A stretch of 34,065 nucleotides of DNA, from the IMG/VR virus record IMGVR_UViG_3300042261_001706, positions 1 to 34,065 of that record; one strand, written 5' to 3'. Under the pieces are notes generated by a model that searched no databases, was not told the origin of the DNA, and saw only the letters and a list, made by a program, of their open reading frames with translations. This document shows, one piece after another, positions 10,950 through 33,918 of this stretch (the first letter of the stretch is position 1; the number at the start of each line of letters is the position of its first letter). Source of the stretch: a virus. The position numbers and the translations under genes were made by a program.

Positions 10950-11572
10950 GCGATGGCGAACCGGCGGTAAGCGTTGAGGATCTCGACGACCTGCGGCGTG
11001 AGCTTCACGTCGCCGAGCTTGGACTCCGCGTCCGGCTTCGCTCCGACGGAGACGCCGAGCTTGTCCATCGCGGCCCAGACGTGGCGGCACTGCATGAGCC
11101 ACGCGAGCTTGAGATCGTCCGGCAGAGACGCCGCGCCGGTCGGCGGCGTGGTGGAATAGCCCTGGTCCGCCGGCTCCTTCGTCTCCCACCAGTATCCGCC
11201 GGTGAAGGTGATGCGGCCGATGGCGAGGTCGGTGCTCAACGGAGAACCGAAGCTCACCCAGCCGCTCTCCGCTCGCCAGTTCTCGACGGCGTTGGCGTCC
11301 TCGATGAAGCCTTCGGTGGCGTTCTCCTTCACCTCGACCTTGGCGATGGACTCGACCGGGTAACGGTCCACGATGACGTTGTCCGCTCCGGCGGGGAACG
11401 TCATCGTCGCGCCGACGGCGCGGTAAAACTTGCGGTTGCAGAAACGCTCGAACTGCGCCGCGACGCCGAGGCCGAGGTCGGCGATGACCGTGTCGAGCGC
11501 CGTCTGCGTGCGGATGGCCGGCGCGAGCAGGTGCGCCTTGAGCGTGGCGAGGTTGGAAAGTCCGGCGTTCAT
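10946..11572 (-). CDS. Head-tail connector (gp6-like)
   Basis: A 208-residue protein starting MNAGLSNLATLKAHLLAP. The pattern (LDTVIADLGLGVAAQFERFCNRKF, then YPVESIAKVEV, then ITFTGGYWW, then LPDDLKLAWLMQCRHVW) is typical of phage head-tail connector proteins of the gp6/Gp15-like group, which ring the portal. The start overlaps the stop of the small upstream gene. Placement after capsid genes and before the gpG-like gene fits this role. Confidence 0.75.
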   Translation of the reverse strand: MNAGLSNLATLKAHLLAPAIRTQTALDTVIADLGLGVAAQFERFCNRKFYRAVGATMTFPAGADNVIVDRYPVESIAKVEVKENATEGFIEDANAVENWRAESGWVSFGSPLSTDLAIGRITFTGGYWWETKEPADQGYSTTPPTGAASLPDDLKLAWLMQCRHVWAAMDKLGVSVGAKPDAESKLGDVKLTPQVVEILNAYRRFAIA

Positions 11573-11706
11573 GGCTTCTTGACTTGCGAGATCATCGTTG
11601 CGGCCGGAGTGGGCCGCGGACCAGCCGCCAGAGGCGGACGCTGCGCCCTGCGCGTCGTGAGATCGCGCGAGCGCAGCATCCGGTTCTCTGGGGAGTGGTT
11701 TTGCAT
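11569..11706 (-). CDS. 45-residue ORF in the connector region
   Basis: A 45-codon frame starting MQNHSPENRMLRSRDL and ending VKKP. It is arginine/proline-rich. Its stop overlaps the connector ATG (ATGA), and its start lies just after the upstream stop, so it fills an otherwise empty interval in a tightly packed operon. No family is recognised. The length and arginine bias could also reflect a leader without function. Confidence 0.5.
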   Translation of the reverse strand: MQNHSPENRMLRSRDLTTRRAQRPPLAAGPRPTPAATMISQVKKP

Positions 11707-11708
11707 GG

Positions 11709-11885
11709 TCACTTCACGTCGGTGACGAGAGCGCCGAGGGCGGCGCGGCGCGCGGGCGCGACCTCGAAGATGTCGCCGGGATTCCGGTGCTGATCATCCT
11801 CGTGGAGGTGGACCACGGCCTTGACCTTGACCTTCGCCGGTTTTTCCGGCGCGGGCTTGGTTTCGATTTTGTCCTTGTCCGCCAT
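11709..11885 (-). CDS. Small phage protein, hypothetical
   Basis: A 58-residue protein starting MADKDKIETKPAPEKPAKVK, with a lysine/proline-rich head and a compact tail containing HRNPGDIFEV. The H...PGD.FEV pattern appears in short proteins encoded between capsid and connector genes in many phages. It may be a small head-completion or decoration protein, unconfirmed. It is spaced two bases from the next gene, as expected in this operon. Confidence 0.65.
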   Translation of the reverse strand: MADKDKIETKPAPEKPAKVKVKAVVHLHEDDQHRNPGDIFEVAPARRAALGALVTDVK

Positions 11886-11893
11886 GTGGCTCC

Positions 11894-12328
11894 TTAGTTG
11901 CCCAGCCGCGTCGGTTTGACGTAGCCGGTCACGATCACCGTGATGATGTTCGTGGAGGGGTTGATGATGGTGCCGAGTCGGACGTAACCGATGGCGCCGA
12001 GCGTCAGGTTCGTGTTCTGCACGGCGGTCGTGTTCGCCACCTGGCTGACCTGGAGCGTCGCGATCGGCGCGGCGTCGTAGGTGGAGCCGTCGAGCGACTT
12101 CATCAGCGTGGCCGTCGGCGCGTCCGTGGCGGTGCCCGCGGCGGTGACAGCGAACTTGATGCCGATGTCGTTGGCCTTGGTGGCCGTGAACGCGCCGCCG
12201 TTGATGGTGTTGGTGGTGTTCGGCGCGAAGACCATGTTCGTGCCGAGTTGGGTGCCGGCGTATTGCTGCGCCGAGGCGATGCCCGCGCACAGCGCGAGCA
12301 TCATGCAGACTGCGATCAGTTTCTTCAC
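11894..12328 (-). CDS. Exported protein in head operon, hypothetical
   Basis: A 144-residue protein beginning MKKLIAVCMMLALCAGIASA|QQ, a textbook signal peptide. The mature 123 residues are threonine/asparagine/valine-rich beta sequence (NTINGGAFTATKANDIG). It lies directly downstream of the capsid gene, where head decoration proteins are usually encoded, but the leader predicts export from the cytoplasm. It may be a host-derived or envelope-acting protein, or a decoration protein with an uncleaved leader. No family is recognised. Confidence 0.65.
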   Translation of the reverse strand: MKKLIAVCMMLALCAGIASAQQYAGTQLGTNMVFAPNTTNTINGGAFTATKANDIGIKFAVTAAGTATDAPTATLMKSLDGSTYDAAPIATLQVSQVANTTAVQNTNLTLGAIGYVRLGTIINPSTNIITVIVTGYVKPTRLGN

Positions 12329-12409
12329 TGTGTTTGTCCTTATGTTGTTGGTTGAGCGTTTGCCGTCGGGGCCGGCCGCGTCTCCGCGACCGGCCCTCCG
12401 GGCAATGGG

Positions 12410-13633
12410 TTACTGGGCGGCCAGGGTGAGCTTGGCGAACGCCGTGGCGGCGCGGATGATGACGCCCGCGCGCATCACGCCGCGGTAGGCGATCTGGTTG
12501 TAATCGAAGTAGAACGAGTCGCTCGCGGCGAACTCGAACTGCTTGCGGATTCCGACGGCGCAACCCTGCGGGTCGCCGAAGACAGCCACGACGTTTCCGG
12601 CGCTGTCCGTGGAGGGCATGGCGTCGGCCAGGACGACCGGGTAGCCGAGGATGCTGCCGATGGCGTTCGGCGCGGGAGCTTCCAGAGCGTTCTGGAATAC
12701 CGGGCGGCCGTTGGCATCCTTGACGAGCACGATCTTCGCCATGATGGACGGATGCACCCACCACTTGCAGGCCCGGCGCAGCGTGCCCGCCGCGACGGTG
12801 GTGAGGCACTTCACGAAGTCATCCACGTCGAGCGCGGAGACGGTCGTGTTGCCGTTGGCGGCCGTCGCGGCGGTGCCGCCGCTGGCGATGCCGGTGTAGT
12901 TGCCGTCGGTGGTGTCGTTGCTGCCGTCGGCCGCGAACGCCGCCCAGTCGAGCCGGTAGGCGCACGCCTCGCCGAAGTCGGCGAGCACGTCGGCGACCAC
13001 GTCAATATCCGCCTCCTCGATGAGCGCGCGGGCGACGCCGATGAGCACGCCCATGTCGAGCATCGTGAGGTTGACCGAGGTGCCAGCCTTGTTGCTGTCA
13101 GCGCCGATCTGGCCAGCGCCGGTCAGCATCCACAACGCCACCGGACGCGCCGTCTTCACGGGCATCGTCTGGAGATATTTGCTGACGGAGCGCACGCCGA
13201 GCGTGGACCACGCGCCGTAGGTGCTCAGCACGTCATAGACGTCCTGCGCGACCTCGTTGTTGATGACCGTGGAGCCGGGCGTGCTGCTCTCCAGCAACGC
13301 TTTGGCCTCCGGGCGCAGCTCCATCTTCGCGCCCGCGCCGGCCAGCAGCAGGGTCTTGAGGATGCTGCGGACCTTGTTCTCGTCGGACATGATGCGGCGG
13401 ATCGGGTCGCCATTGGCGCGAACGATGTCGCTGCGGAGCGAGACCTGCGCGCGCTGGATCTGCTGCAAGAGCACGGCCTGGTCGTTGGTGACAGTCTTGA
13501 TGCGGTTGATCTCCGCGATCGCGCCCTTGGTTTCCTGGCTCAGCGTGGCGACTTCCTGCTTCACGGCCTTCTGCTCCGTTTGCAGCGTCTCGACGCCGCC
13601 GAGAACCTTCGTTTGAAATTCCTGATTTTCCAT
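12410..13633 (-). CDS. Major capsid protein, HK97 fold
   Basis: A 407-residue protein. Residues 1-90 form a charged coiled coil (VETLQTEQKAVKQEVATLSQ), the scaffolding delta domain of HK97-type capsids that the prohead protease removes. The remainder contains typical capsid segments: TVINNEVAQDVYDVL, ARALIEEADIDVVADVL and WWVHPSIMAKIVLVKDANGR, then GSILGYPVVLADAMP and a C-terminal FYFDYNQIAYRGVMRAGV. It is adjacent to the protease gene, as expected. Forms the shell of the head. Confidence 0.9.
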   Translation of the reverse strand: MENQEFQTKVLGGVETLQTEQKAVKQEVATLSQETKGAIAEINRIKTVTNDQAVLLQQIQRAQVSLRSDIVRANGDPIRRIMSDENKVRSILKTLLLAGAGAKMELRPEAKALLESSTPGSTVINNEVAQDVYDVLSTYGAWSTLGVRSVSKYLQTMPVKTARPVALWMLTGAGQIGADSNKAGTSVNLTMLDMGVLIGVARALIEEADIDVVADVLADFGEACAYRLDWAAFAADGSNDTTDGNYTGIASGGTAATAANGNTTVSALDVDDFVKCLTTVAAGTLRRACKWWVHPSIMAKIVLVKDANGRPVFQNALEAPAPNAIGSILGYPVVLADAMPSTDSAGNVVAVFGDPQGCAVGIRKQFEFAASDSFYFDYNQIAYRGVMRAGVIIRAATAFAKLTLAAQ

Positions 13634-16462: not shown

Positions 16463-17800
16463 TCAGCACACCTCCGCGTAGATGGGAACGCTCGCGGGCT
16501 TTGCCGCGTGCAGCGCGAGAGCCTTCGCCCAGAAACGGTCGCAGTGGGAGTCTGCGGCCTCGCCGGAGAACCGGATGTTTCCGGCGGCCGTGTTTTCCTT
16601 CTTGATGCCGCGCAAATCGCTGCGGAGCGCGTCGTCCTTCGTGTAGCGGAGCGTGCGGTCTTCGTGGGCGGCGCGGACGGGGAACGCAAGCTCCTCCTTC
16701 ATCGGCGCGGTGAACTTCACCGGCTCCACCTTGTAGCCGAACTTCTCCCGGGCGCGCTCGGCGAGCTGCATCCCGAGGCCGCTGGCGTCCATGCAGCACC
16801 GCCGCACCTGCGGCAGCGAGAGCAGCCGGTAAAGTTCCGCCTCCTGCACGCTGAACGGCGTCGCGCGCAGTTCCACGCGCATCCGCTCCCAGAGCACGTC
16901 ACCCACCCGCTCCTCCACGTCGAACACCGTGAGGTCCTTCGTGCGGCCCACGTCCACGCCGATGTATAGCGGGTTCTTCGCGTCGAGCAGATAGTTGAAA
17001 TCCTTGCGCGCGCTGTCGTCCTCGCACGCGGCCATCATTTCGAACGTGATGAACGCGGTGGATTCGTCGGCGGGGATGCAGCAATACTCCTGCATCCAGG
17101 ACTCTTCGTCGAGGCACTCCGCGCGCTGCCGCGCGAGCCATTCTTCGCGCGTGTCGTTGCGGCCGGTGGCAACATTGATTTTCTCCACGAGGCCGTCCTC
17201 CACCGCCCGCGTGACGGGGATGGAATGCAGCGACCATCCCATCGGGTTGCCGCGCTCCTTGATGTCGCGGATGATCTCGTTGAACACCGTGGCCGCGCCG
17301 CGGTGCGTGGAGATGATCGAGAGCGTGCCACCCCACTGGATCACCGGCTTGGCGACGGCGTAGAGCGTGCGCTGGTCCTTGTGCAGCGCGAACTCGTCGA
17401 GCTTCACATGGCCGGTCTTGCCGACGATGGCGTCGGGGTTGCTGCTGAGCGCGTAGATGCTCGCGCCGCTGGCGAACGTGAGCACCTGCACCTTGACGGA
17501 CTTGCCGTCGGCGGTGGTGAACACCTGCTCGCCGTGGTCCTCCGCGGCGTGCTTCAACACGCGCGCCCACCGCTTGCAGTAGAGCAAATATTGTTTCGCC
17601 TGGATCTCGTCGCGGGACATCACCCACACGTCGCGCCCGTTCGTCGCGGCGGCCTTGCGGACGCTGTCGTAGGAGTCCGCGTAGGACAGCCCGATCTGGC
17701 GCGACTTCTCGCAGATCTTCAGGTGCGCCGTGTCCAGTATCCACGCCGCCTGATAGGGCATGAAGTATTTGCCGGAGAGTTTGGGAGCGATGGCCGTCAC
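16463..17800 (-). CDS. Terminase large subunit
   Basis: A 445-residue packaging ATPase-nuclease. The ATPase half has a deviant Walker A segment at about 34-42 (KSRQIGLSY), seen in Mu gp28-type terminases, and a Walker B at HVKLDEFAL (about 133) followed by the coupling motif SIISTHRG. The nuclease half begins at YIGVDVGRTKDLTVFDV (first acidic residues of the RNase H-like site). The start overlaps the upstream stop as ATGA. It works with the neighbouring small-subunit-like protein to cut and pump DNA, probably by headful. Confidence 0.92.
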   Translation of the reverse strand: MTAIAPKLSGKYFMPYQAAWILDTAHLKICEKSRQIGLSYADSYDSVRKAAATNGRDVWVMSRDEIQAKQYLLYCKRWARVLKHAAEDHGEQVFTTADGKSVKVQVLTFASGASIYALSSNPDAIVGKTGHVKLDEFALHKDQRTLYAVAKPVIQWGGTLSIISTHRGAATVFNEIIRDIKERGNPMGWSLHSIPVTRAVEDGLVEKINVATGRNDTREEWLARQRAECLDEESWMQEYCCIPADESTAFITFEMMAACEDDSARKDFNYLLDAKNPLYIGVDVGRTKDLTVFDVEERVGDVLWERMRVELRATPFSVQEAELYRLLSLPQVRRCCMDASGLGMQLAERAREKFGYKVEPVKFTAPMKEELAFPVRAAHEDRTLRYTKDDALRSDLRGIKKENTAAGNIRFSGEAADSHCDRFWAKALALHAAKPASVPIYAEVC

Positions 17801-18465
17801 AGCAGCTTCAGCTCCTTCTCAATCTTCTCGATCGTCTCCGGCCGCACGCCGCTCTTGTTGCGCGCGGCGTCGAGCTGTTTCTGGATGGCGGCCTTGCGCT
17901 CCGCGACGTGCTCCTGGTGTTTCTCCAGCTTGATCTGAAGCTCCGCGCGCGCGAGTTCCAGGTCTTCGCGCTTGAGCTTGTTGCCCTCGATCTTCGCCTC
18001 GGCGCCGACGACCTTAGTGATCGTGGAGAGGCCGGATGCGATGAGCTTGGCGGCCTTCAACGGGTCCTTCTCGGCGGCGGCGTCCATGATGTCAGCGAGG
18101 CCCGCGCTCTGCTGCTTCATCGCCTCGGTGGCCAGCGTCGTTCCGCGCCGCTCGGCGTCGCGCTCGGCGGCCTCGATGGCCAGCCGGTTGGAGTTGATGC
18201 GGCGGATGGCGTTGAGGATGCGGTTGCGGCCGATGCTGATGTTGCCGCTGGAGATCTGCCTCTTGTGCTCCGCGAGCCACGCGCGGATGTTGGTGAAGGA
18301 CTCCGTCGTCAGAAGGTGGAAGAACTCATGGCCGAGTTCGGAGTCCACGAGCACGGCGCGGAGCTTGGAGTCCGCGCGCAGGTCTTGCACGATCATCGCC
18401 AGGAGTTGGCTGTCCGCGGCGGGCTGCCGTTCGTTCGAGGCCTTGACTGGTTGCTTGATGCCCAT
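17797..18465 (-). CDS. Terminase small subunit-like protein (Mu gp27-like)
   Basis: A 222-residue, mostly helical protein directly upstream of the large terminase, overlapping it by four bases. Two parts are visible: a helical DNA-binding-like front (SQLLAMIVQDLRADSKLRA, LNAIRRINSNRLAIEAAERD), and a coiled-coil C terminus (LELARAELQIKLEKHQEHVA). Mu-like phages encode a DUF3486-type protein in this position, and size and helical content fit, but the assignment is mainly positional. Confidence 0.6.
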   Translation of the reverse strand: MGIKQPVKASNERQPAADSQLLAMIVQDLRADSKLRAVLVDSELGHEFFHLLTTESFTNIRAWLAEHKRQISSGNISIGRNRILNAIRRINSNRLAIEAAERDAERRGTTLATEAMKQQSAGLADIMDAAAEKDPLKAAKLIASGLSTITKVVGAEAKIEGNKLKREDLELARAELQIKLEKHQEHVAERKAAIQKQLDAARNKSGVRPETIEKIEKELKLL

Positions 18466-25723: not shown

Positions 25724-28204
25724 ATGAGCACCCACACCGAACTGATTTGCGAGACCGGCGCTTCGGTCGCTGACAACATTTCAACCGTGGAACCAGCCGG
25801 CGGAGGAGCGGAGACGAGCCAACAGCCTACGGACATGCGCTCCCGCGATGACGCCGCCGGACCTCCACGGGTTTTTTCTGAGAGTGAAGAGTTAAGAGTG
25901 AAGAGTGAAGAAATGGGAACCGCGAAGCCGCGGCGGGTGTTGGATCTGCCGGACTTGAACGCGCCGGTGACGGCGCGCGAACTCCAGGAGGCGCTGGGGA
26001 TTTCGCGGCAGGCGGTGACGAAGGCGGCGGGCAAGGGACGGTTCGGGGAATCATTAACCCCGGGTGTGTATGTCTTCGCGCTGGCGTCGCTGCCGGAGGA
26101 TGCGCGGCGGAAGGTGACGGCGGCGCGGAAGGCGCGGCAGCGGGAGCGGGTGCGCGAGGCGCTGGCGCCGTCGGCGCTCGCGCCGGTGTTCGAGCCGGCG
26201 TTGGACCACTTCACGACGGCGGAGCAGGAGGCGGGCGGCCAGCGCCGGGACTTCGTGCTGGAGGTGGAGTTGACGGTGGCGAACGACCCGCGCGTGTCGA
26301 AGCGGGACGCGGTGGACCGGATCGTGCGGCGCGAGCTGGCGCTGGAGCGCGCGGGGCGCGTCGGTGATCTGAAGTATCCGCTGTTGCTCTCGTCGGGGAA
26401 GAATCTTGGCATCGCGCTCTCGTGGGGGAACTACAACTCATGGCACGCGCGCTGGCGGCCGTGGCGGCGCGGCGACGGCGACCGCGCGAACTGGTGGTGC
26501 CTCTGCCCGCGATACCGGGGCCACACACGCGAGCGGTTCGGGGACGACCGGTTCTGGAGAAAGTTCGCGGCGCTATACGAGTGCGAGACCCGGCGGGACA
26601 TGCACAACAGCTATCTATCGGCGCGGGAGTTCTCGATCCGGGCGGGCGTGAGCGAGCTGAACATCCCGAGCGAGCGGCAGGTGCGGTTTTTCTACGAGAC
26701 AAAGGTGGACCCGCACGTCCTCGCGGCGCGGCGGAACGGGCCGAAGCATGTATATGACCAGCTTGACAGCTTCACGATGCGGGACTGGAGCAAGGTCTCG
26801 CCGGACGAGTGTTGGACGGCGGACGGCCACATCTGCAACGTGTTCGTGCGTTACTTCGACGCGATGGCCGGGCCGATCGACCCGGCGACGGCGCTGCCGA
26901 CGGGCGGCTGGCGCTGGTGCCGTCCGGTGCTGACGCAGTGGATGGACGCGAAGACGTGGAAGACGGTGGGGCACATCTTCACGCGGGTGAGCAGCAAGGA
27001 CAGCATCGAGATCGCGCTGCGGCGTGCGATTGACAAGCGCGGCGCGGTGCCGCTGGTGGCGTATTACGACTGCGGGCGCGACTACCAGGCGTTCGGCGGG
27101 ACGGCGCGCGGCTTCGCGGGGTCGCAGCGGATGGGCTACGACGCGGACCGCGCGAAGAGCGTGTGCGAGGCGCTCGGCATCCGGGCGATCATGGCGCTGC
27201 CATATAACCCGCGCGCGAAACTGAACGAGCGGTTCTTCCGCGCGCACGAGGTCTTCATGCAGCGGTGGCCGAGTTACACGGGGATGCGCAAGGAGCAGAT
27301 GGACAAGCTCTGGCGGCGCAAGACGGGCACGGACAACCTCTGCCTCCAGGAGCGCGTGGAGACTTACCCGGAAGGGCACAAGCTCGCGGGCTGCCTCGTG
27401 CGGCCGGAGGCGCTGCCGACGATGGAGCACTTCGAGGCGGAATATCTGCGCTGGCTCGAGGAGGTCTGGAACAAGCGCCCGAGCAAGGGGCGCGTGAACT
27501 TCGGCGCGTCGCCGGATGAGACCTACTACGGCGCGAAGAGCGCGGGCCGCGATGTGTCGGCGGAGGATGTCTCGCTGGCGTTCCTCGAGGTCTACGCGAC
27601 GCGCAAGGTGGCGCGCGGCGGATACCTCCACTGGTGCCCGCCGAACGGGACGAAGCCGGACTGGAAGTTCTACCAGGACCCGGAGCTGGTGCTGCGGCGC
27701 GGGGAATACGTGCAGCTCCGCGTGGACAAACGATGGTCGCCGGCGCCGCGGCTCTTCGTCTTCGAGCGCGTGCGGCAGACGATCGCTTGCGCGGATGTGG
27801 AGACGTGGCGGCAGATCAAGTGCAGCGGGCCGCTCGGCAGCGTGCCGAACACGGCGGGCATGGAGGCGTTCGCGGGTGACGCGGAGCAATACCTCGAAGC
27901 CGGCCGAAAGCGGGCGCAATGGAAGCGGAAGATCAAGGCCGGCGTGGACGCCGCCGACCGCCTGGACGTAATGCGCGACCTGGAGGCGAGCGTGAACATC
28001 GAGCGCGGCGAGTCCGCGACGGGCCGGCGCGAGGACGGGACGTTCCGCATCGCGGCGGAGCGGAAGGTCTTCGTGCCGCAGACGGCGCGGAAGGCGGAGG
28101 AGGCCGCGATGCGCAAGGCGGTGGACGTTGCGCGCAAGGCCGTGCCCGCCGATCTGGCGGCGGCGTATCGTGGAGAAGAGGAGAACGAGAAAGCTGAGCG
28201 ATGA
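25724..28204 (+). CDS. Mu-type DDE transposase A
   Basis: An 826-residue transposase that cuts and joins phage ends. Residues about 80-105 hold a HTH-like end-binding segment (PVTARELQEALGISRQAVTK). The catalytic DDE triad is clear: first D in DECWTADGHICNVFV (about residue 367), second D in VAYYDCGRDYQ (about 449), and the glutamate in AKLNERFF (about 504). Residues near 52 (SEELRVKSEE) come from a heptamer tract. The C-terminal helical tail (RKAEEAAMRKAVDVARKAVP) would contact MuB. The last six codons and stop (28186-28204) lie in an attC-like site, so the gene end was rebuilt by cassette insertion. Confidence 0.93.
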   Translation: MSTHTELICETGASVADNISTVEPAGGGAETSQQPTDMRSRDDAAGPPRVFSESEELRVKSEEMGTAKPRRVLDLPDLNAPVTARELQEALGISRQAVTKAAGKGRFGESLTPGVYVFALASLPEDARRKVTAARKARQRERVREALAPSALAPVFEPALDHFTTAEQEAGGQRRDFVLEVELTVANDPRVSKRDAVDRIVRRELALERAGRVGDLKYPLLLSSGKNLGIALSWGNYNSWHARWRPWRRGDGDRANWWCLCPRYRGHTRERFGDDRFWRKFAALYECETRRDMHNSYLSAREFSIRAGVSELNIPSERQVRFFYETKVDPHVLAARRNGPKHVYDQLDSFTMRDWSKVSPDECWTADGHICNVFVRYFDAMAGPIDPATALPTGGWRWCRPVLTQWMDAKTWKTVGHIFTRVSSKDSIEIALRRAIDKRGAVPLVAYYDCGRDYQAFGGTARGFAGSQRMGYDADRAKSVCEALGIRAIMALPYNPRAKLNERFFRAHEVFMQRWPSYTGMRKEQMDKLWRRKTGTDNLCLQERVETYPEGHKLAGCLVRPEALPTMEHFEAEYLRWLEEVWNKRPSKGRVNFGASPDETYYGAKSAGRDVSAEDVSLAFLEVYATRKVARGGYLHWCPPNGTKPDWKFYQDPELVLRRGEYVQLRVDKRWSPAPRLFVFERVRQTIACADVETWRQIKCSGPLGSVPNTAGMEAFAGDAEQYLEAGRKRAQWKRKIKAGVDAADRLDVMRDLEASVNIERGESATGRREDGTFRIAAERKVFVPQTARKAEEAAMRKAVDVARKAVPADLAAAYRGEEENEKAER
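25879..25913. repeat. AGTGAAG-type heptamer tract inside transposase
   Basis: Units AGTGAAG, AGTTAAG, AGTGAAG and AGTGAAG in the poorly conserved N-terminal region of the transposase, encoding SEELRVKSEE in frame. Confidence 0.85.
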
Positions 28205-28272
28205 CGCCCACAACGACATCCGAATTGGAACAGGAGCGCGATGGCGTCATTCGCTCCAGCGCCTTGTTAGCA
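28180..28272 (-). repeat. attC-like site at the transposase/methyltransferase junction
   Basis: Read on the minus strand: core TGCTAAC (28272-28266), 6-base spacer, left arm, loop 28209-28242, right arm, 7-base spacer, core GTTCTCC (28186-28180). The arms 28194-28208 and 28243-28259 pair over 15 bp with two bulged bases (T at 28251 and one C at 28256/57), both on the same arm, the hallmark of attC. The core TGCTAAC is exactly complementary to the methyltransferase cassette boundary at 28889-28896. Confidence 0.85.
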
Positions 28273-28895
28273 GGCCAGCCCGCTCCATACTACGAGTCCG
28301 AAGGCATCACCATCTACTGCGATGACAATGCTCGCGTGCTGCCACACCTGTTTCCGTGTGACCTGCTACTTACCGACCCGCCGTTCGGAATCGGATTCGC
28401 GGCGCAACCAACCACCGGCCAGCGCAAACGTGGACAAGCCCGTGAATCATGGGACGATGCAACGCCGGAAGAATGGACGCTGCTGCTCGCCCGCAAACTC
28501 TGCGGCAAACAAATCATCTGGGGCGGCAACTACTTTGGGCTTCCGAGAAGCCGCTGCTGGCTATCGTGGTATAAGCCGGACGCCCCGCCGAGCATGGGAA
28601 ATGTGGAATACGCATGGACGAACCTCGACCAGAACTCGCGGCAAATAGAGCAGAGCATCGCCGCAACCAACGGCGAACGCGTCGGACACCCGACGCAGAA
28701 ACCGCTCCGGGTGATGGGCTGGGCACTGCAACAGGCCGGTGAAGCGCAAACGATACTCGACCCGTGGATGGGGAGCGGCACAACCCTCGTGGCCGCGAAA
28801 CTCGCCGGAGTGCGAGCAATCGGAATCGAGGCAAACGAAACCTACTGCAAGCTGGCGGTCGCCCGATTGGCGCAAGGCGTCCTCTGGCCTGCTAA
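28186..28895 (-). mobile_element. Single gene cassette carrying a DNA methyltransferase
   Basis: A 710-bp unit bounded by the attC-like site at 28180-28272 and the attI-like sequence at 28896. The inverted pair TTGTTAGCAGGCCA (28264-28277) and TGGCCTGCTAACAA (28885-28898) is perfect over 14 bp, as expected when a cassette start and its own attC core match. The cassette separates transposase A from the gene B leader. Strand is that of the attC; the gene itself reads on the plus strand. Confidence 0.75.
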
Positions 28896-28905
28896 CAATG
28901 ATTAG
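28201..28905 (+). CDS. DNA methyltransferase, adenine-type beta class
   Basis: A 234-residue methyltransferase. The catalytic motif IV is DLLLTDPPFGIGF (about residue 57), and the SAM-binding motif I comes later as ILDPWMGSGTTLVAAKLAG (about 190), so the motif order is beta-class. HPTQKPLRVMGWAL precedes it. DPPF suggests N6-adenine methylation. No restriction gene is nearby, so it is an orphan enzyme that may protect phage DNA. The ATG 28201 overlaps the transposase stop inside the attC stem; a TTG at 28264 starts the first residues outside the attC arms. The stop TAG lies in the attI-like sequence, which supplies the last three residues. Confidence 0.9.
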   Translation: MTPTTTSELEQERDGVIRSSALLAGQPAPYYESEGITIYCDDNARVLPHLFPCDLLLTDPPFGIGFAAQPTTGQRKRGQARESWDDATPEEWTLLLARKLCGKQIIWGGNYFGLPRSRCWLSWYKPDAPPSMGNVEYAWTNLDQNSRQIEQSIAATNGERVGHPTQKPLRVMGWALQQAGEAQTILDPWMGSGTTLVAAKLAGVRAIGIEANETYCKLAVARLAQGVLWPANND

Positions 28906-28925
28906 GCGACGGACGGTTAGCATAT
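28896..28925 (-). other. attI-like site, copy 1 (occupied by the methyltransferase cassette)
   Basis: Agrees at 27 of 30 positions with the sequence immediately upstream of the integrase remnant (33588-33617). On the minus strand it reads GCTAACCG...GCCTAATCATTG and its final G abuts the cassette start TTAGCA. GCCTAAT-CATT-GTTAGCA resembles the inverted-core simple site of attI. Here it is followed by gene B leader sequence instead of intI. Confidence 0.65.
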
Positions 28926-29026
28926 CAACATCGAGGAACTGAAAGGAGAACGAGATGAGCATGGACGACGAGAATGATTTCAACCCGCAAGGCGGGCAAC
29001 TGACGACGACGGTGACGATCAACGTG
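28896..29026. repeat. 131-bp direct repeat, copy 1 (attI-like plus gene B start)
   Basis: Matches 29735-29865 with only four mismatches, at an offset of 839 bp. It contains the attI-like stretch, the ribosome site and the first 24 codons of gene B. Copy 1 then runs into unrelated, more AT-rich sequence, while copy 2 continues as gene B. Confidence 0.92.
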
Positions 29027-29266
29027 AATACTCCAAAATACGAACTCAAAGAAACCAACCACGGGACAGATGGCTTGGACGCCACAACCAAACTCGTGGC
29101 TCGCTTCGACACAAAAGAACTGGCTGAGGCGTGGCTGGCGAGGCGCGAATACACCTACAAGGAATATGGCTCATACTCGCACGCTGACCCCAACAAGCGG
29201 CACTGTATGGGCAAAATCTCATACACCATCACGGAAGATTCGCAAGTGCCGGAGAATCCTCAATAA
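28955..29266 (+). CDS. Chimeric ORF: gene B N terminus plus unknown domain
   Basis: A 103-residue protein. The first 24 residues (MSDDE-type start, MSMDDENDFNPQGGQLTTTV) duplicate the N terminus of the gene B product. The rest (TPKYELKETNHGTDGLDATT; ELAEAWLARREYTYKEYG) is unrelated and of different base composition. The gene uses the copied B ribosome site (AAAGGAG). It may be expressed as a fusion; whether the tail is a free-standing domain is unknown. Confidence 0.6.
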   Translation: MSMDDENDFNPQGGQLTTTVTINVNTPKYELKETNHGTDGLDATTKLVARFDTKELAEAWLARREYTYKEYGSYSHADPNKRHCMGKISYTITEDSQVPENPQ

Positions 29267-29334
29267 TGTCTAACGATCAATATCTCCAACAAGCATCATG
29301 AATAACAAAACCAGAACCACCGAAGGAGTATAGA

Positions 29335-29553
29335 ATGAGAACATGGATAGCTGTATTGGCAATAATAACATCCTGCATCACCATTGGCCTGCAACTGGCG
29401 ATGCTCACACGTGGCCAGTCATCGCAGCGCACCAACAAACCTGTTTGGGTAGAGGAGAGCATTTTGGGCGTCTGTCCTGACTGCGGCAAATATGTGCCGC
29501 GAGGAGATTCTCATTATCCATGTAAATCGTTTTTGAAACGAATGTATCACTAA
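29335..29553 (+). CDS. Small membrane-anchored zinc-ribbon-like protein
   Basis: A 72-residue protein starting MRTWIAVLAIITSCITIGLQ, a membrane segment, followed by GVCPDCGKYVPRGDSHYPCK, a CPDC...PCK cysteine set that could bind zinc. It has a good ribosome site (GAAGGAGTATAG). The composition is visibly more AT-rich than phage genes. It lies between the two 131-bp repeats. Function unknown. Confidence 0.6.
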   Translation: MRTWIAVLAIITSCITIGLQLAMLTRGQSSQRTNKPVWVEESILGVCPDCGKYVPRGDSHYPCKSFLKRMYH

Positions 29554-29572
29554 CCACCGAAGGAGTAATGCC

Positions 29573-29734
29573 ATGACCAAGAAAACCAAAAAGAAGTGCG
29601 GAGCGAGGAAGTGTTTACCATTCACCACGAAAGGCTACCACGTCTGCGGGCGACCAGCAGGACACCAGGGCAAGTATCGTTGTGGCTGGTTGGATGACCA
29701 TGACTGCCGGCCATGCGCTTACGAATGGAGATAG
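29573..29734 (+). CDS. Cysteine/lysine-rich miniprotein
   Basis: A 53-residue protein: MTKKTKKKCGARKCLPFTTK, then HVCGRPAGHQGKYRCGW and DHDCRPCAYEWR. Six cysteines and several histidines in C/H clusters suggest a zinc-binding fold. Its leader (AACCACCGAAGGAGTAATGCC) repeats the leader of the preceding gene almost exactly. Its stop is directly followed by the second attI-like copy. Not recognised. Confidence 0.55.
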   Translation: MTKKTKKKCGARKCLPFTTKGYHVCGRPAGHQGKYRCGWLDDHDCRPCAYEWR

Positions 29735-29865
29735 CAATGATTAGGCGACGGACGGTTAGCATATCAACATCGAGGAGCTGAAAGGAGAACGAGATGAGCA
29801 TGGACGACGAGAAGGATTTCAACCCGCAAGGCGGGCAACTGACGGCGAAGGTGACGATCAACGTG
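29735..29865. repeat. 131-bp direct repeat, copy 2 (attI-like plus gene B start)
   Basis: The second copy, which continues into the intact gene B. The first 30 bases (29735-29764) are the attI-like stretch. On its left the expected TT of a cassette core reads CT, so no canonical cassette boundary is present here. The region between the repeats (29027-29734) is lower in GC than the phage. Confidence 0.9.
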
Positions 29866-30909
29866 CCGGGGGACCACGCGAACGCGCGGTGCCGCGGGGC
29901 TTACACGCGGGAGCAGGCGGAGCTGGCGCTCTGGAGCTATTACCGGTCACTGCCGATGACGTGGCGGGAGGCGGCGGCGTTCTTCGACGTGGAGAGCGCG
30001 GTGCTGAAGAAGCTCTGGCTCGGCGCGCTGGATGGCGCGGAGTTGACGGCGGCGCTGAAGGCCGTGGCGGAGGTGAAGGAGTCCAGCGGGCGGAACGCCA
30101 CGCCGCGATACGCGATGACCTCGGCGGCGCGGAAGTTCGGCCACGCGCTGGAGGTGGCGCTGGACACGGCGGACGCGGACCTGCCGCTGACGAAGCCGCG
30201 CATCATCTTCATCGCCGCGGATGCCGGCGCGGGCAAGACGACGCTCCTGCGGGCGTTCGCGGAGGCGAACAACCACGGGCGGACGTGCTACTGGCAGCCG
30301 GACAGGATCGGCGGGCTGAAGCATTGCGTGCAAGAGCTGGCCGCGCTCAACAACATCAACAGTTACGTCAGTTACAACGACATGCTTCCGCGAGTGCAGT
30401 CGTGCTTCGACCACCGCATCCTGATCGTGGACGACGCGCACACGCTCATCGAGGACGGCAGCAACCGGCTGCGGAAGCTGGAGTTCCTGCTCGGCCTGCA
30501 CGACACGCGGCGCGTGACGATCGTGATGGCCGCCGCGCTGGACCGGTTCGGCTCGGCGCTCTCGGAGGTGCGGTATAATCACAAGCAGTTTTTCCGGCGC
30601 TGCCGCTACAAGCTCATCCTGGACGACCCGGCCAGCCGCAAGGACGTGGAGGCGCTCTGGACTTTCCACTTCCCCAGGCTCGCGCTGCCGGACGAGCTGC
30701 GGACGATCCTGGAGGCGCTGAACGCGCACGCGCAGGGAGGCTTCGGCGCGGTGGCGGCGGTGCTGGACGACGTGCGGCGGTTCGCCGACAAGCGCGGCGA
30801 GCGCGTGGGCGCGCCCGTGGCGCTGGCCGTGGCCAGCGAGCAGCTCGCGGATCTAGAGAAGCTCGGCAAGCTCATCGGCACCCCCGTCTGGCAACGGAGG
30901 GCGGCGTGA
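29794..30909 (+). CDS. Mu B-type target-immunity AAA+ ATPase
   Basis: A 371-residue ATPase that binds target DNA, activates transposase A and mediates target immunity. Residues about 35-80 form a HTH-like N terminus (YTREQAELALWSYYRSLPMT; WREAAAFFDVESAVLKKLWL). Walker A is AADAGAGKTTLLRAF (about residue 145), Walker B RILIVDDAHTL (about 209), and sensor-like RVTIVMAAALDRFG follows. The C terminus (VAAVLDDVRRFADKRG) resembles the DNA-binding MuB tail. Its stop TGA at 30907-30909 falls inside the core of the next attC-like site. Confidence 0.92.
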   Translation: MSMDDEKDFNPQGGQLTAKVTINVPGDHANARCRGAYTREQAELALWSYYRSLPMTWREAAAFFDVESAVLKKLWLGALDGAELTAALKAVAEVKESSGRNATPRYAMTSAARKFGHALEVALDTADADLPLTKPRIIFIAADAGAGKTTLLRAFAEANNHGRTCYWQPDRIGGLKHCVQELAALNNINSYVSYNDMLPRVQSCFDHRILIVDDAHTLIEDGSNRLRKLEFLLGLHDTRRVTIVMAAALDRFGSALSEVRYNHKQFFRRCRYKLILDDPASRKDVEALWTFHFPRLALPDELRTILEALNAHAQGGFGAVAAVLDDVRRFADKRGERVGAPVALAVASEQLADLEKLGKLIGTPVWQRRAA

Positions 30910-30968
30910 ACGACCAAGCTCACCCCACTGCCGCCGGGAGCCGGTTAGCTCCCACGACTGGTTCTGCG
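30906..30968 (-). repeat. attC-like site at the gene B end (leftmost of the array)
   Basis: On the minus strand: core GCAGAAC within CGCAGAAC (30968-30961), arms with AGCTAACC pairing GGTGAGCT at 7 of 8 positions, and core GTTCAC (30911-30906) preceded by GAGCTTGGTC, very close to the usual right end of attC sites. It is less perfect than the other five. Its core CGCAGAAC matches the cassette boundary at 31225-31232. Confidence 0.55.
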
Positions 30969-31259
30969 ATTTTCGCGGAAATCGCCGCCGAAGTGGAACG
31001 CGCAACCGCCAAGTTCCAGACGTGGCCAACCGATGCGTTGCACGCCGTTGGTGTTGTGGCCGAGGAAATGGGCGAGCTACAAAAGGAGGTCATGCAACTG
31101 ACTTATGAGCCGCACAAGTCCACCAAGGAGAGCGTGCGGAAAGAGGCGGTCCAACTCGCGGCCATGTCGCTGCGCTTCCTAACGAGCCTCGACCGCTACG
31201 AATACGCGCCGAGTCCGCAGCACTCGCAGAACGCCGGAACTCAGCGACCCGGCCAATGA
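30906..31259 (+). CDS. MazG-like nucleotide pyrophosphohydrolase-type protein
   Basis: A 117-residue helical protein with the MazG-like patterns GVVAEEMGELQKEVMQLTY (EE..E at about residue 54) and RKEAVQLAAMSLRFLTSL (about 78). The usual E-x-x-D is E-x-x-Q here (KEAVQ), so activity may be lost or altered. GTG start at 30906 overlaps the gene B stop. If active it would hydrolyse noncanonical or excess nucleotides during phage replication. Boundaries 30911 and 31231 are cassette edges. The C-terminal residues are supplied by the next attC. Confidence 0.75.
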   Translation: MNDQAHPTAAGSRLAPTTGSAIFAEIAAEVERATAKFQTWPTDALHAVGVVAEEMGELQKEVMQLTYEPHKSTKESVRKEAVQLAAMSLRFLTSLDRYEYAPSPQHSQNAGTQRPGQ

Positions 31260-31320
31260 AACGCACCGATTGCAACCAGACCGCGAAGGCCGGGTCCGCT
31301 GGAGTGACTTGTTGGGCCAC
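31225..31320 (-). repeat. attC-like site 2
   Basis: On the minus strand: core GCCCAAC (31317-31311), spacer AAGTCA, arm CTCCAGCGGACCCGGCC (31304-31288), 33-base loop, arm GGCCGGGTCGCTGAG (31254-31240), spacer TTCCGGC, core GTTCTGCG (31232-31225). Two extrahelical bases (31296 and 31301/02). The sequence AACAAGTCACTCCAGCGGAC is the usual attC left end. It contains the overlapping stop/start ATGA at 31256-31259. Confidence 0.85.
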
Positions 31321-31492
31321 GGGCGCAGTCATTCGCATATGTGAATGCGGCTCAACCAAATGGCCACCGTCCCCGTGCCTACAGGTCTGCACAAATGGGC
31401 GCGACGAATGGGCATCCTGCCCGACATGCAACAAGACATGGGACACTCGCACGCTCAAGGAGTGGCCCAACGTAGCGATCACCCATGACTGA
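31256..31492 (+). CDS. Zinc-ribbon-like protein in a cassette
   Basis: A 78-residue protein, starting within the attC-like site 2 (ATGA overlap). It contains RTDCNQ, GVTCWA, RICECGSTK, SPCLQVC and ASCPTCNKTWD. The pairs CEC and CPTC fit a zinc-binding ribbon. It may be a small Zn protein interacting with nucleic acid or a host protein. No family is recognised. Confidence 0.65.
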   Translation: MKRTDCNQTAKAGSAGVTCWATGAVIRICECGSTKWPPSPCLQVCTNGRDEWASCPTCNKTWDTRTLKEWPNVAITHD

Positions 31493-31530
31493 CCAACGGG
31501 AAGGAATTGGGTGCATCGACCTGTTGGGCC
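31462..31530 (-). repeat. attC-like site 3
   Basis: On the minus strand: core GGCCCAAC (31530-31523), spacer AGGT, arm CGATGCACCCA (31518-31508), 22-base loop, arm TGGGTGATCG (31485-31476), spacer CTAC, core GTTGGGCCAC (31471-31462). One extrahelical base (31514). The cores are perfectly complementary, and GTGGCCCAAC matches GTTGGGCCAC at 31311-31320. Contains ATGACTGA at 31485. Confidence 0.9.
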
Positions 31531-31579
31531 GCTTTCGAGAGACGCCGAAAAAAAAGATGAAAATAGTTGCAGATTTCTC

Positions 31580-31608
31580 TTGCGCAAGCGGCTTGCGCAT
31601 GGCAAAGT
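31580..31608 (+). promoter_or_regulatory. Cassette promoter with palindromic operator
   Basis: TTGCGC (31580-31585) and CAAAGT (31603-31608) are 17 bases apart. The -35 and spacer carry the palindrome TGCGCAAG-CGG-CTTGCGCA. The -10 lies six bases ahead of the ATG at 31615, so the transcript would be almost leaderless. TCTCTT precedes the -35, as at the second cassette promoter. Confidence 0.45.
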
Positions 31609-31614
31609 GTGGCC

Positions 31615-31827
31615 ATGAAAACGAACTGCAACATGACAATCGAAACCAAAATCGTAGCGGCTGCTGTCCTCGGCACGATGGCCTTCAACGCTGGAATGAA
31701 GCGCATCCCCGCAATGGACAAGAACCTCGAACCACTCCTTGCCGGGAATCAAATCGGCGAAGGAATCCCTGTCCTCAAGGCTTGGATCGCCTCATGGGAC
31801 GCCGCCAACCTCGCCGCCCCGGTATGA
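31615..31827 (+). CDS. Small cassette protein, hypothetical
   Basis: A 70-residue protein starting MKTNCNMTIETKIVAAAVLG, with GMKRIPAMDKNLEPLLAGNQ and KAWIASWDAANLAAPV. No ribosome site is seen, but a candidate promoter lies directly before it, so a near-leaderless mRNA is possible. Its stop overlaps the next ATG as ATGA. The two-gene unit with its own regulated promoter would suit a toxin-antitoxin pair, but no known toxin or antitoxin family is recognised. Confidence 0.55.
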   Translation: MKTNCNMTIETKIVAAAVLGTMAFNAGMKRIPAMDKNLEPLLAGNQIGEGIPVLKAWIASWDAANLAAPV

Positions 31828-31991
31828 GCGACCCAATCAAGAAATACCTCGCGTCAATCGGGGCGCGAGGTGGTAAGGCGGGGACGGGCAAGGCCAAAGC
31901 CCGCACGAAAGCGCAAGCCCGTGCTGCGGCAAAGGCGCGATGGGACAAGGCGCGTGCTCTGCGCCAGAACGATGAGGTCAGCCATGAGTGA
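31824..31991 (+). CDS. Basic miniprotein, KGG/GxRGG type
   Basis: A 55-residue protein starting MSDPIKKYLASIGARGGKAG. The GARGGKAGTGKAKARTKAQA stretch and AARAKAR-type repeats make it strongly basic, like the small GxRGG/KGG stress or DNA-associated proteins. It is coupled to the upstream gene by ATGA. Its stop falls in the attC-like site 4 (ATGAGTGA). Perhaps binds nucleic acid. Confidence 0.55.
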   Translation: MSDPIKKYLASIGARGGKAGTGKAKARTKAQARAAAKARWDKARALRQNDEVSHE

Positions 31992-32061
31992 CGCGCCGAT
32001 GATGCCCGATTTCTCGAAAACCGTGAACGCGGCACTCATTGGCTGCACCGATTGGTTGGAG
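31964..32061 (-). repeat. attC-like site 4
   Basis: On the minus strand: core CTCCAAC (32061-32055), spacer CAATC, arm from 32049, 42-base loop, arm to 31976, spacer TCATC, core GTTCTGG (31970-31964). Arms 31976-31990 and 32033-32049 pair over 15 bp with exactly two bulged bases (32040 and 32046). Core GTTGGAGCG (32055-32063) is perfectly complementary to CGCTCCAAC (32729-32737) at the far end of its cassette. Confidence 0.9.
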
Positions 32062-32126
32062 CGTCCGGTTCAAAATCGCAATAAAATCAAGGCTTTCGTG
32101 AGCCTGAAAATAAATCAAAATATCTC

Positions 32127-32157
32127 TTTACAGGAAACCGCTTTCCTGTCATATTCT
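32127..32157 (+). promoter_or_regulatory. Second cassette promoter with palindromic operator
   Basis: TTTACA (32127-32132) and TATTCT (32152-32157, spacer 19; CATATT would give 17) precede a gene at 32200. The palindrome CAGGAAA-CCGC-TTTCCTG overlaps the -35 and the spacer. TCTCTT before the -35 and the operator placement match the promoter at 31580, although the operator sequence differs. Confidence 0.5.
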
Positions 32158-32199
32158 AACCATCGAAGGGCCAGTAACCCGACGAAGAAAAAACAGAAT

Positions 32200-32595
32200 A
32201 TGAAAGCAACAATCGAACAAATCGCGGAGCGTGCAAACCAACTCTCCGGCTCGATGAGCCACGGCAACGCCTGCTACGCCGCCTGCCGCGAAATGGGTGT
32301 GGAAGAATCCGAAGTGCCGGCGGTGGCGAGCATCGTCAGCACCGAACTGACGAATCGGGAAATGAATCCGAGATGCGAAACGCCTGAAGAAAAATCGAAG
32401 AAGGTCGCAATCGCGGCGCTCGTGCCGAAGCATCTCGAAGCCATCGCCGCTGAACTCGAAATCGAATCCACCAAACGCGGCGGAAACTGGGGGCAAAAAG
32501 CCATCGCCGCCATTCGGCGCGGCCAACCTCGGTGGGAACACACCTCCGAAGCCAACCGCCGTGCGACCGTGGAAGTGGAGGCGAATCGTGAATAA
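32200..32595 (+). CDS. Cassette protein of unknown function, 131 residues
   Basis: Starts MKATIEQIAERANQLSGSMS after the AT-rich promoter region. Mostly helical: HGNACYAACREMGVEESEVP; VAIAALVPKHLEAIAAELEI, with a C-terminal arginine-rich segment GQKAIAAIRRGQPRWEHTSE. An in-frame longer version starts at ATG 31984 in the attC-like site 4, giving 203 residues, but the intervening promoter and low-complexity sequence favour the shorter start. It overlaps the next gene by eight bases. Not recognised. Confidence 0.6.
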   Translation: MKATIEQIAERANQLSGSMSHGNACYAACREMGVEESEVPAVASIVSTELTNREMNPRCETPEEKSKKVAIAALVPKHLEAIAAELEIESTKRGGNWGQKAIAAIRRGQPRWEHTSEANRRATVEVEANRE

Positions 32596-32779
32596 GGCTG
32601 CTCAAGCACTCGGTCGGCTGGCCAAAGGCGTCCCGAAAACTCTGACGGATGAACAGCGGAAATTCCGCGCCGAGCAGTTGGCGGCTGCTCGGAAGAAACG
32701 CCACGAAAAACCGAAGCGCATCGCCCGGCGCTCCAACGCAGAACTGAGCGACGGGCTGAAAGCCCGTTCGCTCCAGTGA
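32588..32779 (+). CDS. Basic cassette miniprotein
   Basis: A 63-residue protein from GTG 32588 (VNKAAQALGRLAKGVPKTLT; DEQRKFRAEQLAAARKKRHE), rich in lysine and arginine. It overlaps the previous gene by eight bases and ends SLQ* inside the attC-like site 5, so its last codons cross the cassette boundary at 32736/32737. Could be a DNA-binding partner of the upstream protein, such as an antitoxin, but no family is seen. Confidence 0.5.
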   Translation: MNKAAQALGRLAKGVPKTLTDEQRKFRAEQLAAARKKRHEKPKRIARRSNAELSDGLKARSLQ

Positions 32780-32789
32780 TTTGTTCGCC
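32731..32789 (-). repeat. attC-like site 5 (nearest the attI-like site)
   Basis: On the minus strand: core GGCGAAC (32789-32783), spacer AAATCA, arm CTGGAGCGAACGGGCT (32776-32761), loop of three, arm AGCCCGTCGCTCAG (32757-32744), spacer TTCTGC, core GTTGGAG (32737-32731). Two extrahelical bases (32768 and 32773/74). TTGTTCGCCGA (32781-32791) is perfectly complementary to TCGGCGAACAA (33580-33590), the far end of its cassette. Confidence 0.9.
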
Positions 32790-33612
32790 GATGATTCGTG
32801 TATTTCCAATGAAAACGAAGTGGACGCCAGCCGACGACATGGCATTTGTCGGGGAGCCTCCGCTGTGGCGTCCTGGAACTCCCGAAACACCAGTGCGCGT
32901 CTCTGTGACCTTCACATGGCACAAGGATGAAGCCGAGCGGATCGCCGCCTCGTGGGCGCACTACTACCGCGACGTGAAGTTGGGCGGGCCGGCATACGAC
33001 GACCCCGGCGGCGAGTTCACGCCGGGAATGTTCCTGAAAGAAGGCTGCACCATAACAAGCCGAGGATGCCCGAAGAAATGCGGCTGGTGCGTCGTGCCTA
33101 CCCGAGAAGGGTCGGTGCGCGAACTGGAAATAAAGCCGGGATGGATCGTGCAGGACAACAACCTGCTGGCGTGCTCTGAAAAGCATATCCGCGCCGTGTT
33201 CGACATGCTCAAGGCTCAAAAGCGCCGTGTGTGGTTCAACGGCGGACTCGACAAGCACTTCCTCAAGCCGTGGCATCGTGAAATGTTCGACTCTGTGCCA
33301 ATCGGTGAACTCTGGTTTGCGTGCGACACGGCGCTAGACCTTCCGTGGCTCGAAAAGGCGGCGGCGATCCTCGATGGCTATCCGGTGCGAAAACTCCGCT
33401 GCTACACGATGGTCGGATACAACGGTGAAACCATCGCCGACGCCGAGGCGCGGCTACACCGTGTGCTCAAGCTGGGCTTCCTGCCGTTCACGCAACTCTA
33501 TCAGCCGGAAACACGCAAACACTACTCGGACGACTGGCGGAAACTGTGCCGACGATGGGCACGACCGGCGGCCATGTTGTCGGCGAACAATGATTCTGCG
33601 ACGGGCGGTTAG
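32776..33612 (+). CDS. Radical SAM protein in a cassette
   Basis: A 278-residue radical SAM enzyme from GTG 32776 (GTGA overlap with the upstream stop); alternative starts are ATG 32791 and 32809. The [4Fe-4S]-SAM motif is SRGCPKKCGWCVV at about residues 95-107, CX3CX2C. The remaining domain (QDNNLLACSEKHIRAVFDML; NGGLDKHFLKPWHREMF; LRCYTMVGYNGETIADAEAR) fits a partial TIM barrel with the usual loops. Substrate unknown. The last eight residues (NNDSATGG) and stop come from the attI-like site, not from the cassette. The usual C-terminal extension seems short. Confidence 0.88.
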   Translation: MICSPMIRVFPMKTKWTPADDMAFVGEPPLWRPGTPETPVRVSVTFTWHKDEAERIAASWAHYYRDVKLGGPAYDDPGGEFTPGMFLKEGCTITSRGCPKKCGWCVVPTREGSVRELEIKPGWIVQDNNLLACSEKHIRAVFDMLKAQKRRVWFNGGLDKHFLKPWHREMFDSVPIGELWFACDTALDLPWLEKAAAILDGYPVRKLRCYTMVGYNGETIADAEARLHRVLKLGFLPFTQLYQPETRKHYSDDWRKLCRRWARPAAMLSANNDSATGG

Positions 33613-33617
33613 CATAT
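33588..33617 (-). other. attI-like site next to the intI remnant
   Basis: Thirty bases directly before the integrase start. On the minus strand it reads GCTAACCG...GCAGAATCATTG and abuts the first cassette (TTCGCC). GCAGAAT-CATT-GTTCGCC is an inverted-core simple site like attI. It lies between the integrase and the array, exactly where attI belongs, and occurs twice more near gene B. Confidence 0.7.
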
Positions 33618-33618
33618 T

Positions 33619-33918
33619 ATGAACGCGCAAGAGGCGATCCAGCGGATGCGGGAGGTGTTGAGGTTGAAGCACTTGGCTCTCTCGACTGAGGAGTCTTATT
33701 GTGGGTGGGTGCTCCGTTACGCGGAGCATCTGAGGTCGCTGCCAGCCGGGCTTCCTTGCGAGCGGAAGATCGAGTCGTTTCTGACGAAGCTGGCGAAACA
33801 GAACGTGTCCGCTTCCACGCAAAATCAGGCTTTCAACGCCCGCGCAAGGTGGAAGTGGAGCGTCCCAGTGTGGCCGTTCACGTCGCCGATCTGGTGGACG
33901 GCGTTATTCAGGGGGTAG
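33619..33918 (+). pseudogene. intI: Integron integrase, N-terminal remnant
   Basis: The first 74 codons match the N-terminal (SAM-like, core-binding) domain of IntI-type tyrosine recombinases: EVLRLKHLALSTEESYCGW, VLRYAEHL, ERKIESFLTKLA, and VSASTQNQAFNA, where integrases usually continue ALLFFY. At about 33840 the similarity stops and an unrelated tail (RARWKWSVPVW) follows to a stop. All catalytic residues (R-H-R-Y) are missing. It is placed divergently from the attC array, the canonical intI arrangement, and its loss would freeze the array. Confidence 0.85.

Follow-up and report, generated by a model that had tools for sequence, protein, structure and literature searches.

Integrons are usually regarded as bacterial devices that are occasionally picked up by phages, and the locus described here raises the question of what such an element is doing among the early genes of a transposable phage. 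The window, meaning the whole stretch of DNA that was analysed, is IMG/VR virus record IMGVR_UViG_3300042261_001706 (G000; 34,065 bases). It is a contig of a transposable (Mu-like) phage: profile searches found homologues of the transposition genes A and B, a terminase, a portal protein fused to a Mu F domain (Phage_portal/Phage_Mu_F), and Phage_capsid. The segment from 28180 to 33840 contains a remnant of an integron integrase gene (intI), an attI, and a series of attC sites, of which four are strong, one is weaker, and one is a half-site. The answer proposed is that this is probably a decayed copy of a phage-adapted integron, resident 3' of B in the early operon of a Mu-like family and carrying exchangeable anti-restriction cassettes. 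At the level of sequence comparison, the sites, the identity of the integrase, the conserved position, the polarity, the cargo, and one cassette rearrangement are each documented. A first-pass annotation had described an attC array, attI, and intI remnant in a Mu-like early operon, and that description was upheld by an attC scan with controls, by the attI motif, and by related phages.

The array strand of the window is the minus strand, on which attC sites were scored by a scan of the L arms, the strict pattern demanding two extra bases on the L'' arm. An earlier version of the scan that demanded complementarity between R'' and R' missed most sites, R' being part of the next cassette. All four strong attCs carry two extra bases on the L'' arm, as in known attCs, and their scores of 13.4–14.1 lie above every one of 150 dinucleotide shuffles of the 34-kb strand, which gave a mean of 0.033 strict matches and a best score of 12.3. 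Because cellular loci gave few matches under the strict bulge filter, which is too narrow for them, the class 1 control used the general scan; on a class 1 integron plasmid this recovered six out of six attCs, with scores of 12.4–14.4. Starting from the attI end, and all on the minus strand, attC1 (32731..32789; R'' GGCGAAC, R' GTTGGAG) scores 13.4, has a plus-strand fold z of −3.96, and is 82% identical to one attC of the related locus L029. It is followed by attC2 (31964..32061; R'' CTCCAAC, R' GTTCTGG; score 13.6; plus-strand fold z −3.30) and by the weak attC (31465..31529; R'' GCCCAAC, R' GTTGGGC), whose score of 9.9 is near shuffle background, whose plus-strand fold z is −3.44, and whose R' complements the next R''. 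Then come attC3 (31226..31317; R'' GCCCAAC, R' GTTCTGC; score 14.1), 80% identical to one attC of phage L032, and, read from the sequence, the half-site R'' GCAGAAC of cassette 5 (30961..30967), which forms an inverted repeat with 31214–31232 and whose attC partner arm is degenerate at the end of gene B. Farthest from attI is attC4, belonging to a methyltransferase cassette (28180..28272; score 14.1), the L'/R' half of which overlaps the 3' end of gene A. A search of Rfam gave no match. Five attCs had been proposed within 30906–33617; that interval does hold the array, with three strong sites, while the other two are the weak site and the half-site, and the element itself reaches left to 28180 with attC4.

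The R' that opens an integron cassette is the complement of the R'' that closes it, and five of the six window cassettes follow this rule. The pairs are GTTCGCC/GGCGAAC in cassette 1, GTTGGAG/CTCCAAC in cassette 2, GTTGGGC/GCCCAAC in cassette 4, and GTTCTGC/GCAGAAC in cassette 5, and the ends of the methyltransferase cassette, TTGTTAGCAGGCCAG and CTGGCCTGCTAACAA, are perfectly complementary over 13 bases. Cassette 3 breaks the rule (GTTCTGG against GCCCAAC). Its homologue in a related viral contig, L043, obeys it by ending in the expected CCAGAAC, so that cassette 3 of the window is probably a rearranged copy.

L043 also provides a trace of cassette exchange. There, the counterpart of window cassette 3 (86% identity over 167 bp) is joined directly to that of the methyltransferase cassette (70% over 741 bp), whereas in the window the two lie ~3.5 kb apart and in the opposite order. 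DNA identity to the cassette 3 region of the window is 86–96%, and the alignment switches cassettes at the attC core (AGAAC, within CCAGAAC), with synteny breaking at the core of attC2. As judged from these alignments, the junction is the footprint expected of integron recombination. The same contig (G039) has two attC clusters of opposite orientation, at reverse-complement coordinates 10472–13412 and 17220–17866, six attCs lying near IntI and two farther off. The leader of cassette 3 (31559–31626), 96% identical in L043, contains an inverted repeat, TTGCGCAAGCGGCTTGCGCA, which is possibly a promoter or operator carried in the cassette.

The array ends at the integrase remnant, codons 1–74 of intI on the plus strand (33619..33840). 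Profile searches support the proposal that residues 1–74 of the open reading frame (ORF) at 33619 derive from an integron integrase: TIGR02249 (1.8e-11) covers residues 7–74, as does PF13495 (1.6e-14), and the remnant is 61% identical to residues 1–74 of the intact IntI of G001/L005. Full-length relatives align to it over residues 1–74 only, the ORF continuing as an out-of-family tail to 33918, and alignment with these relatives found the other ~243 codons nowhere in the window. The attI (33586..33618, minus strand) is defined by a motif found 5' of related intI genes and has its crossover core AAC at 33586–33588 (GTT on the array strand). The sequence directly 5' of the remnant's ATG, AACAATGATTCTGCGACGGGCGGTTAGCATATTATG, fits this motif, with AACAATGATTCTGCGACGGGCGGTTAGCATAT immediately preceding the ATG of the ORF, and the R' of the first cassette is complementary to the first R''; judged by motif and position, the sequence is the attI. 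The motif abuts the start of intI in 20 of 27 related loci, compared with 1.8% of random background windows, and some of the remaining loci have one-base variants of it, in keeping with the attI-like site that had been noted beside the remnant. An exact search of viral and genome contigs with the 22-base attI motif gave no match.

Scans of IMG/VR for related integrases yielded 47 and then 58 loci, most of them full-length at ~315 residues. G030/L034 was left out of the counts: it has a truncated IntI-like ORF in addition to A and B, but no canonical attC. The comparison with related phages that had been suggested proved informative, since G001 and G015 carry B, cassettes, attI, and an intact intI in the same order as the window, the intI following B in the same direction. 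Both are Mu-like phages with B, terminase, and portal genes, gene A being detected by profile in G015, and structural proteins are common to these two records and the window. In addition, the gene 3' of intI in G001 is homologous to the gene 3' of the window remnant. Because the same arrangement occurs with an intact intI in these relatives, the truncation in the window is an internal deletion within a conserved arrangement. An unlikely alternative is that the window holds an orphan array of the kind known as clusters of attC sites lacking integron-integrases (CALINs), whose cassettes arrive through the integrase of the host or of a co-infecting phage and beside which the intI remnant is incidental. 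The truncation of intI agrees with this, phage attCs have served as substrates of IntI1 in a published assay (PMC9892861), and CALIN-like may be the right operational description of the present state of the window phage; as an account of the element, however, it passes over the fact that an intact intI occupies this position in G001 and G015, with the matching gene behind it in G001.

These relatives also bear on whether an integron is present at all. Since the sites coincide with gene junctions and no more than 74 integrase residues are left, one could suppose operon junctions with chance hairpins next to a domesticated N-terminal fragment of a tyrosine recombinase. However, a strict scan of the DNA 5' of 26 related intI genes gave 36 attC sites on the array strand, 1 on the opposite strand, and 0 in shuffles; together with the conserved attI, the cassette rule, and the L043 junction at the attC core, which contradict it, these controls make that explanation exceedingly improbable.

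The integrases of these loci form one clade, with 100/100 support in a maximum-likelihood tree (99 by the Shimodaira–Hasegawa-like approximate likelihood ratio test in a quick tree), consisting of 26 viral contigs and two pieces of Verrucomicrobiota metagenome-assembled genomes (MAGs), one a 3-kb contig and the other at a contig end. The full-length IntI of G001 has Vibrio IntI4 as its best PDB match (2a3v, 4.9e-47; residues 10–305). Other cellular IntIs are at most 44% identical to it among the matches listed, GenBank phages at most 38%, and plasmids at most 40%. One deposited phage, Virus Rctr41k (KX853513; L224), has an IntI-like gene of 38% identity that is annotated xerD, with methyltransferase-like genes nearby. 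IntI-like matches were obtained in 112 of 388 Verrucomicrobiota genomes, and apart from the two MAG pieces no close one is among them. Terminase large subunits were found in 20 of 32 records tested, through different profiles in different phages, and spot checks of other records found virion or tail proteins. Terminase matches in G013, G016, G017, G027, G029, and G043 contain in-frame TGA codons, possibly reflecting TGA recoding, frameshifts, or joined domains. Two further Mu-like records, L037 (G033) and L046 (G042), have IntIs outside the main viral clade, in the order A, B, several kb, intI, with one or two attC-like sites, and these possibly represent a second, independent acquisition of an integron by transposable phages.

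Accidental capture also has to be weighed, in which a piece of a bacterial chromosomal integron entered the phage and is decaying there, as in Vibrio anguillarum prophages. The capture of host integron parts by phages is documented (PMC9892861), and the window has a truncated intI and one weak attC. Against this stand the recurrence of the position, the attI, and the integrase clade in other Mu-like phages, the support and virus association of that clade, the restriction of close IntIs among the Verrucomicrobiota genomes to two short or end-of-contig pieces, and the identity ceiling of 40% among phage and plasmid records, and capture is accordingly considered improbable. The broader proposal, that there is a virus-specific integron lineage, comprising a clade with its own attI across several packaging types, with reversed cassettes and anti-restriction genes swapped among phages, seems reasonably likely.

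Several observations count against a phage-adapted integron in the window and a viral lineage behind it. The whole-stretch fold of attC3 is no better than that of shuffles (z 0), and neither the weak site (9.9) nor the half-site of cassette 5 is individually significant. The profile phrog_310 did not detect gene A in G001, and 12 of the 32 records had no terminase match with the models used. The genome scan was seeded with one exact 8-mer, so that close cellular relatives could be missing from the matches listed; the rarity of the clade in cells is thus supported, not proved. The two MAG pieces suggest, as the only indication, a host among the Verrucomicrobiota, and the phage is known from contig sequence alone.

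In an ordinary cassette, the gene reads away from attI and the attC follows its stop codon. The cassette genes of the window read toward attI, the reverse of typical cassettes, and the statement that the locus is arranged exactly as in a cellular integron applies to the polarity of intI and attC, which is canonical, and not to the cassette genes. Of 32 related cassettes, 29 have their longest ORF on the intI-ward strand, and family matches were obtained for intI-ward ORFs (8 Pfam, 49 PHROG) and for none on the opposite strand (0 and 0). A 4-nt stop/start overlap on the intI-ward strand occurs in 13 of 37 attCs, where random placement predicts 4.3 (maximum 11 in 2,000 placements) and the opposite strand has 1.

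All cassette genes of the window lie on the plus strand. Cassette 1 (32791..33612) encodes a phage radical-SAM protein (phrog_9298, 1.7e-22); cassette 2 (32200..32779) has two genes of no known family (32200–32595 and 32588–32779), and cassette 3 (31567..31991) has one matching phrog_19203 (31567–31827; 9.2e-7) and a second at 31824–31991. The cassette 4 gene (31256..31492) shows a weak DUF5817 match (0.001, under the curated cut-off), and the cassette 5 gene (30906..31259; phrog_2831, 3.6e-16) has a start that overlaps the stop of gene B by 4 nt. The remaining cassette carries an N6/N4 DNA methyltransferase gene (28201..28905; PF01555, 2.8e-15; phrog_67, 1.7e-32), which starts within attC4, its ATG overlapping the gene A stop codon. 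The methyltransferase and the radical-SAM protein are the recognisable cargo of the window. In relatives, recognisable cargo is mostly concerned with DNA modification (several methyltransferase families, Mom, and PAPS [phosphoadenosine phosphosulfate] reductase) and also includes HNH nucleases. In phage Mu, the modification gene mom is a fixed gene; Mom is a cassette gene in relatives of the window, in a lineage where, unlike in Mu, modification genes travel in exchangeable cassettes.

These observations suggest how the element would work. In the intact relatives, circular cassettes would enter the attI beside intI when the viral IntI recombines their attC, folded as a single-stranded hairpin, and because the genes are reversed relative to attC, a new cassette would be inserted in the same direction as the A–B early operon. 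Its genes would be read through with that operon, often with translational coupling where a stop and a start codon overlap within attC, and, the recognisable cargo being mostly DNA-modification genes, the device would serve as an exchangeable toolkit supplying protection from restriction. With intI truncated after codon 74, the array of the window is presumably frozen in cis. Its attI and attCs could be used by an integrase supplied in trans, and this is plausible since phage attCs are usable by the class 1 IntI1 (PMC9892861).

The neighbourhood of the transposition genes may preserve an older episode. Gene A (25724..28204, plus strand) encodes the MuA-like transposase (phrog_310, 2.9e-53) and gene B (29794..30909, plus strand) the MuB-like transposition protein (phrog_296, 1.2e-17); a peptide-pattern search found no close relatives of either. 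Each copy of a 134-bp duplication (28893–29026 and 29732–29865; 96% identical) combines an attI-like sequence with the gene B leader and the opening codons of that gene, and copy 1 is fused to an unrelated ORF (28955–29266). The attI-like copies lie on the minus strand, at 28897..28925 (5' of the duplicated leader) and 29736..29764 (in the gene B leader), and were recognised by a 20-nt motif present three times in the window against 0.01 expected. The two sites 5' of B may derive from an integron that once lay between the two transposition genes.

The element can be set beside several known systems. It shares with sedentary chromosomal and class 1 integrons an attI beside intI, an intI divergent to the attC array strand, canonical attCs with extra bases on L'', and, in relatives, a full-length IntI resembling Vibrio IntI4. 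It departs from them in its reversed cassette genes, short arrays (0–7 strict sites found per locus), viral location, and own conserved attI. With Mu-like phages it shares A and B homologues, terminase, portal with Mu F domain, and capsid genes. The first-pass annotation had taken a chromosomal or CALIN-type array to be the closest known form; phage-borne integrons and CALINs are already known (PMC9892861), and the element does not look like a stray cellular integron, its integrase belonging to a virus-associated clade. As far as the accessible text of that source goes, integrons or their components occur in 21 phages, methyltransferases are found among the cassettes, and a role in counter-defence is put forward (Qi et al., 2023, PMC9892861), and phage attCs were used by the class 1 IntI1 in its assay. 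Its phages resemble the window in having attC arrays with cassettes and methyltransferase cargo, and the methyltransferase of one of them, the CALIN phage MW202573, is 65% identical over 293 bp to that of the window. According to the same portions of text, those of its phages that carry intI have integrases of host type (Vibrio, class 1, Shewanella), which on comparison here are 31–37% identical to the IntI of G001; the text reports neither a transposable phage nor a viral IntI clade nor cassettes of reversed polarity, and Shewanella M16-3, which has a phage integrase gene, is described apart from Mu-like prophages (PMC9892861). A literature search covering few subscription papers brought up no earlier account of a viral IntI clade, of cassette arrays in reverse, or of any transposable phage that carries an integron. 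The earlier statement that no integron had been described in a transposable phage therefore stands within that search, with the qualification that phage integrons and CALINs as such were already described; the lineage, position, and polarity of the window element appear to be new.

A viral origin of integrons has been suggested (PMC4792948), and the deep separation of this clade from all sampled cellular IntIs, if true, bears on that suggestion and brings a deep viral branch into the debate over the source of integrons. For the phages themselves, the finding, if true, would mean that they run their own modular exchange of counter-defence genes and, in the present case, that they do so on genomes spreading by transposition, and it makes testable how phages gain new methyltransferases and Mom-type modifications.

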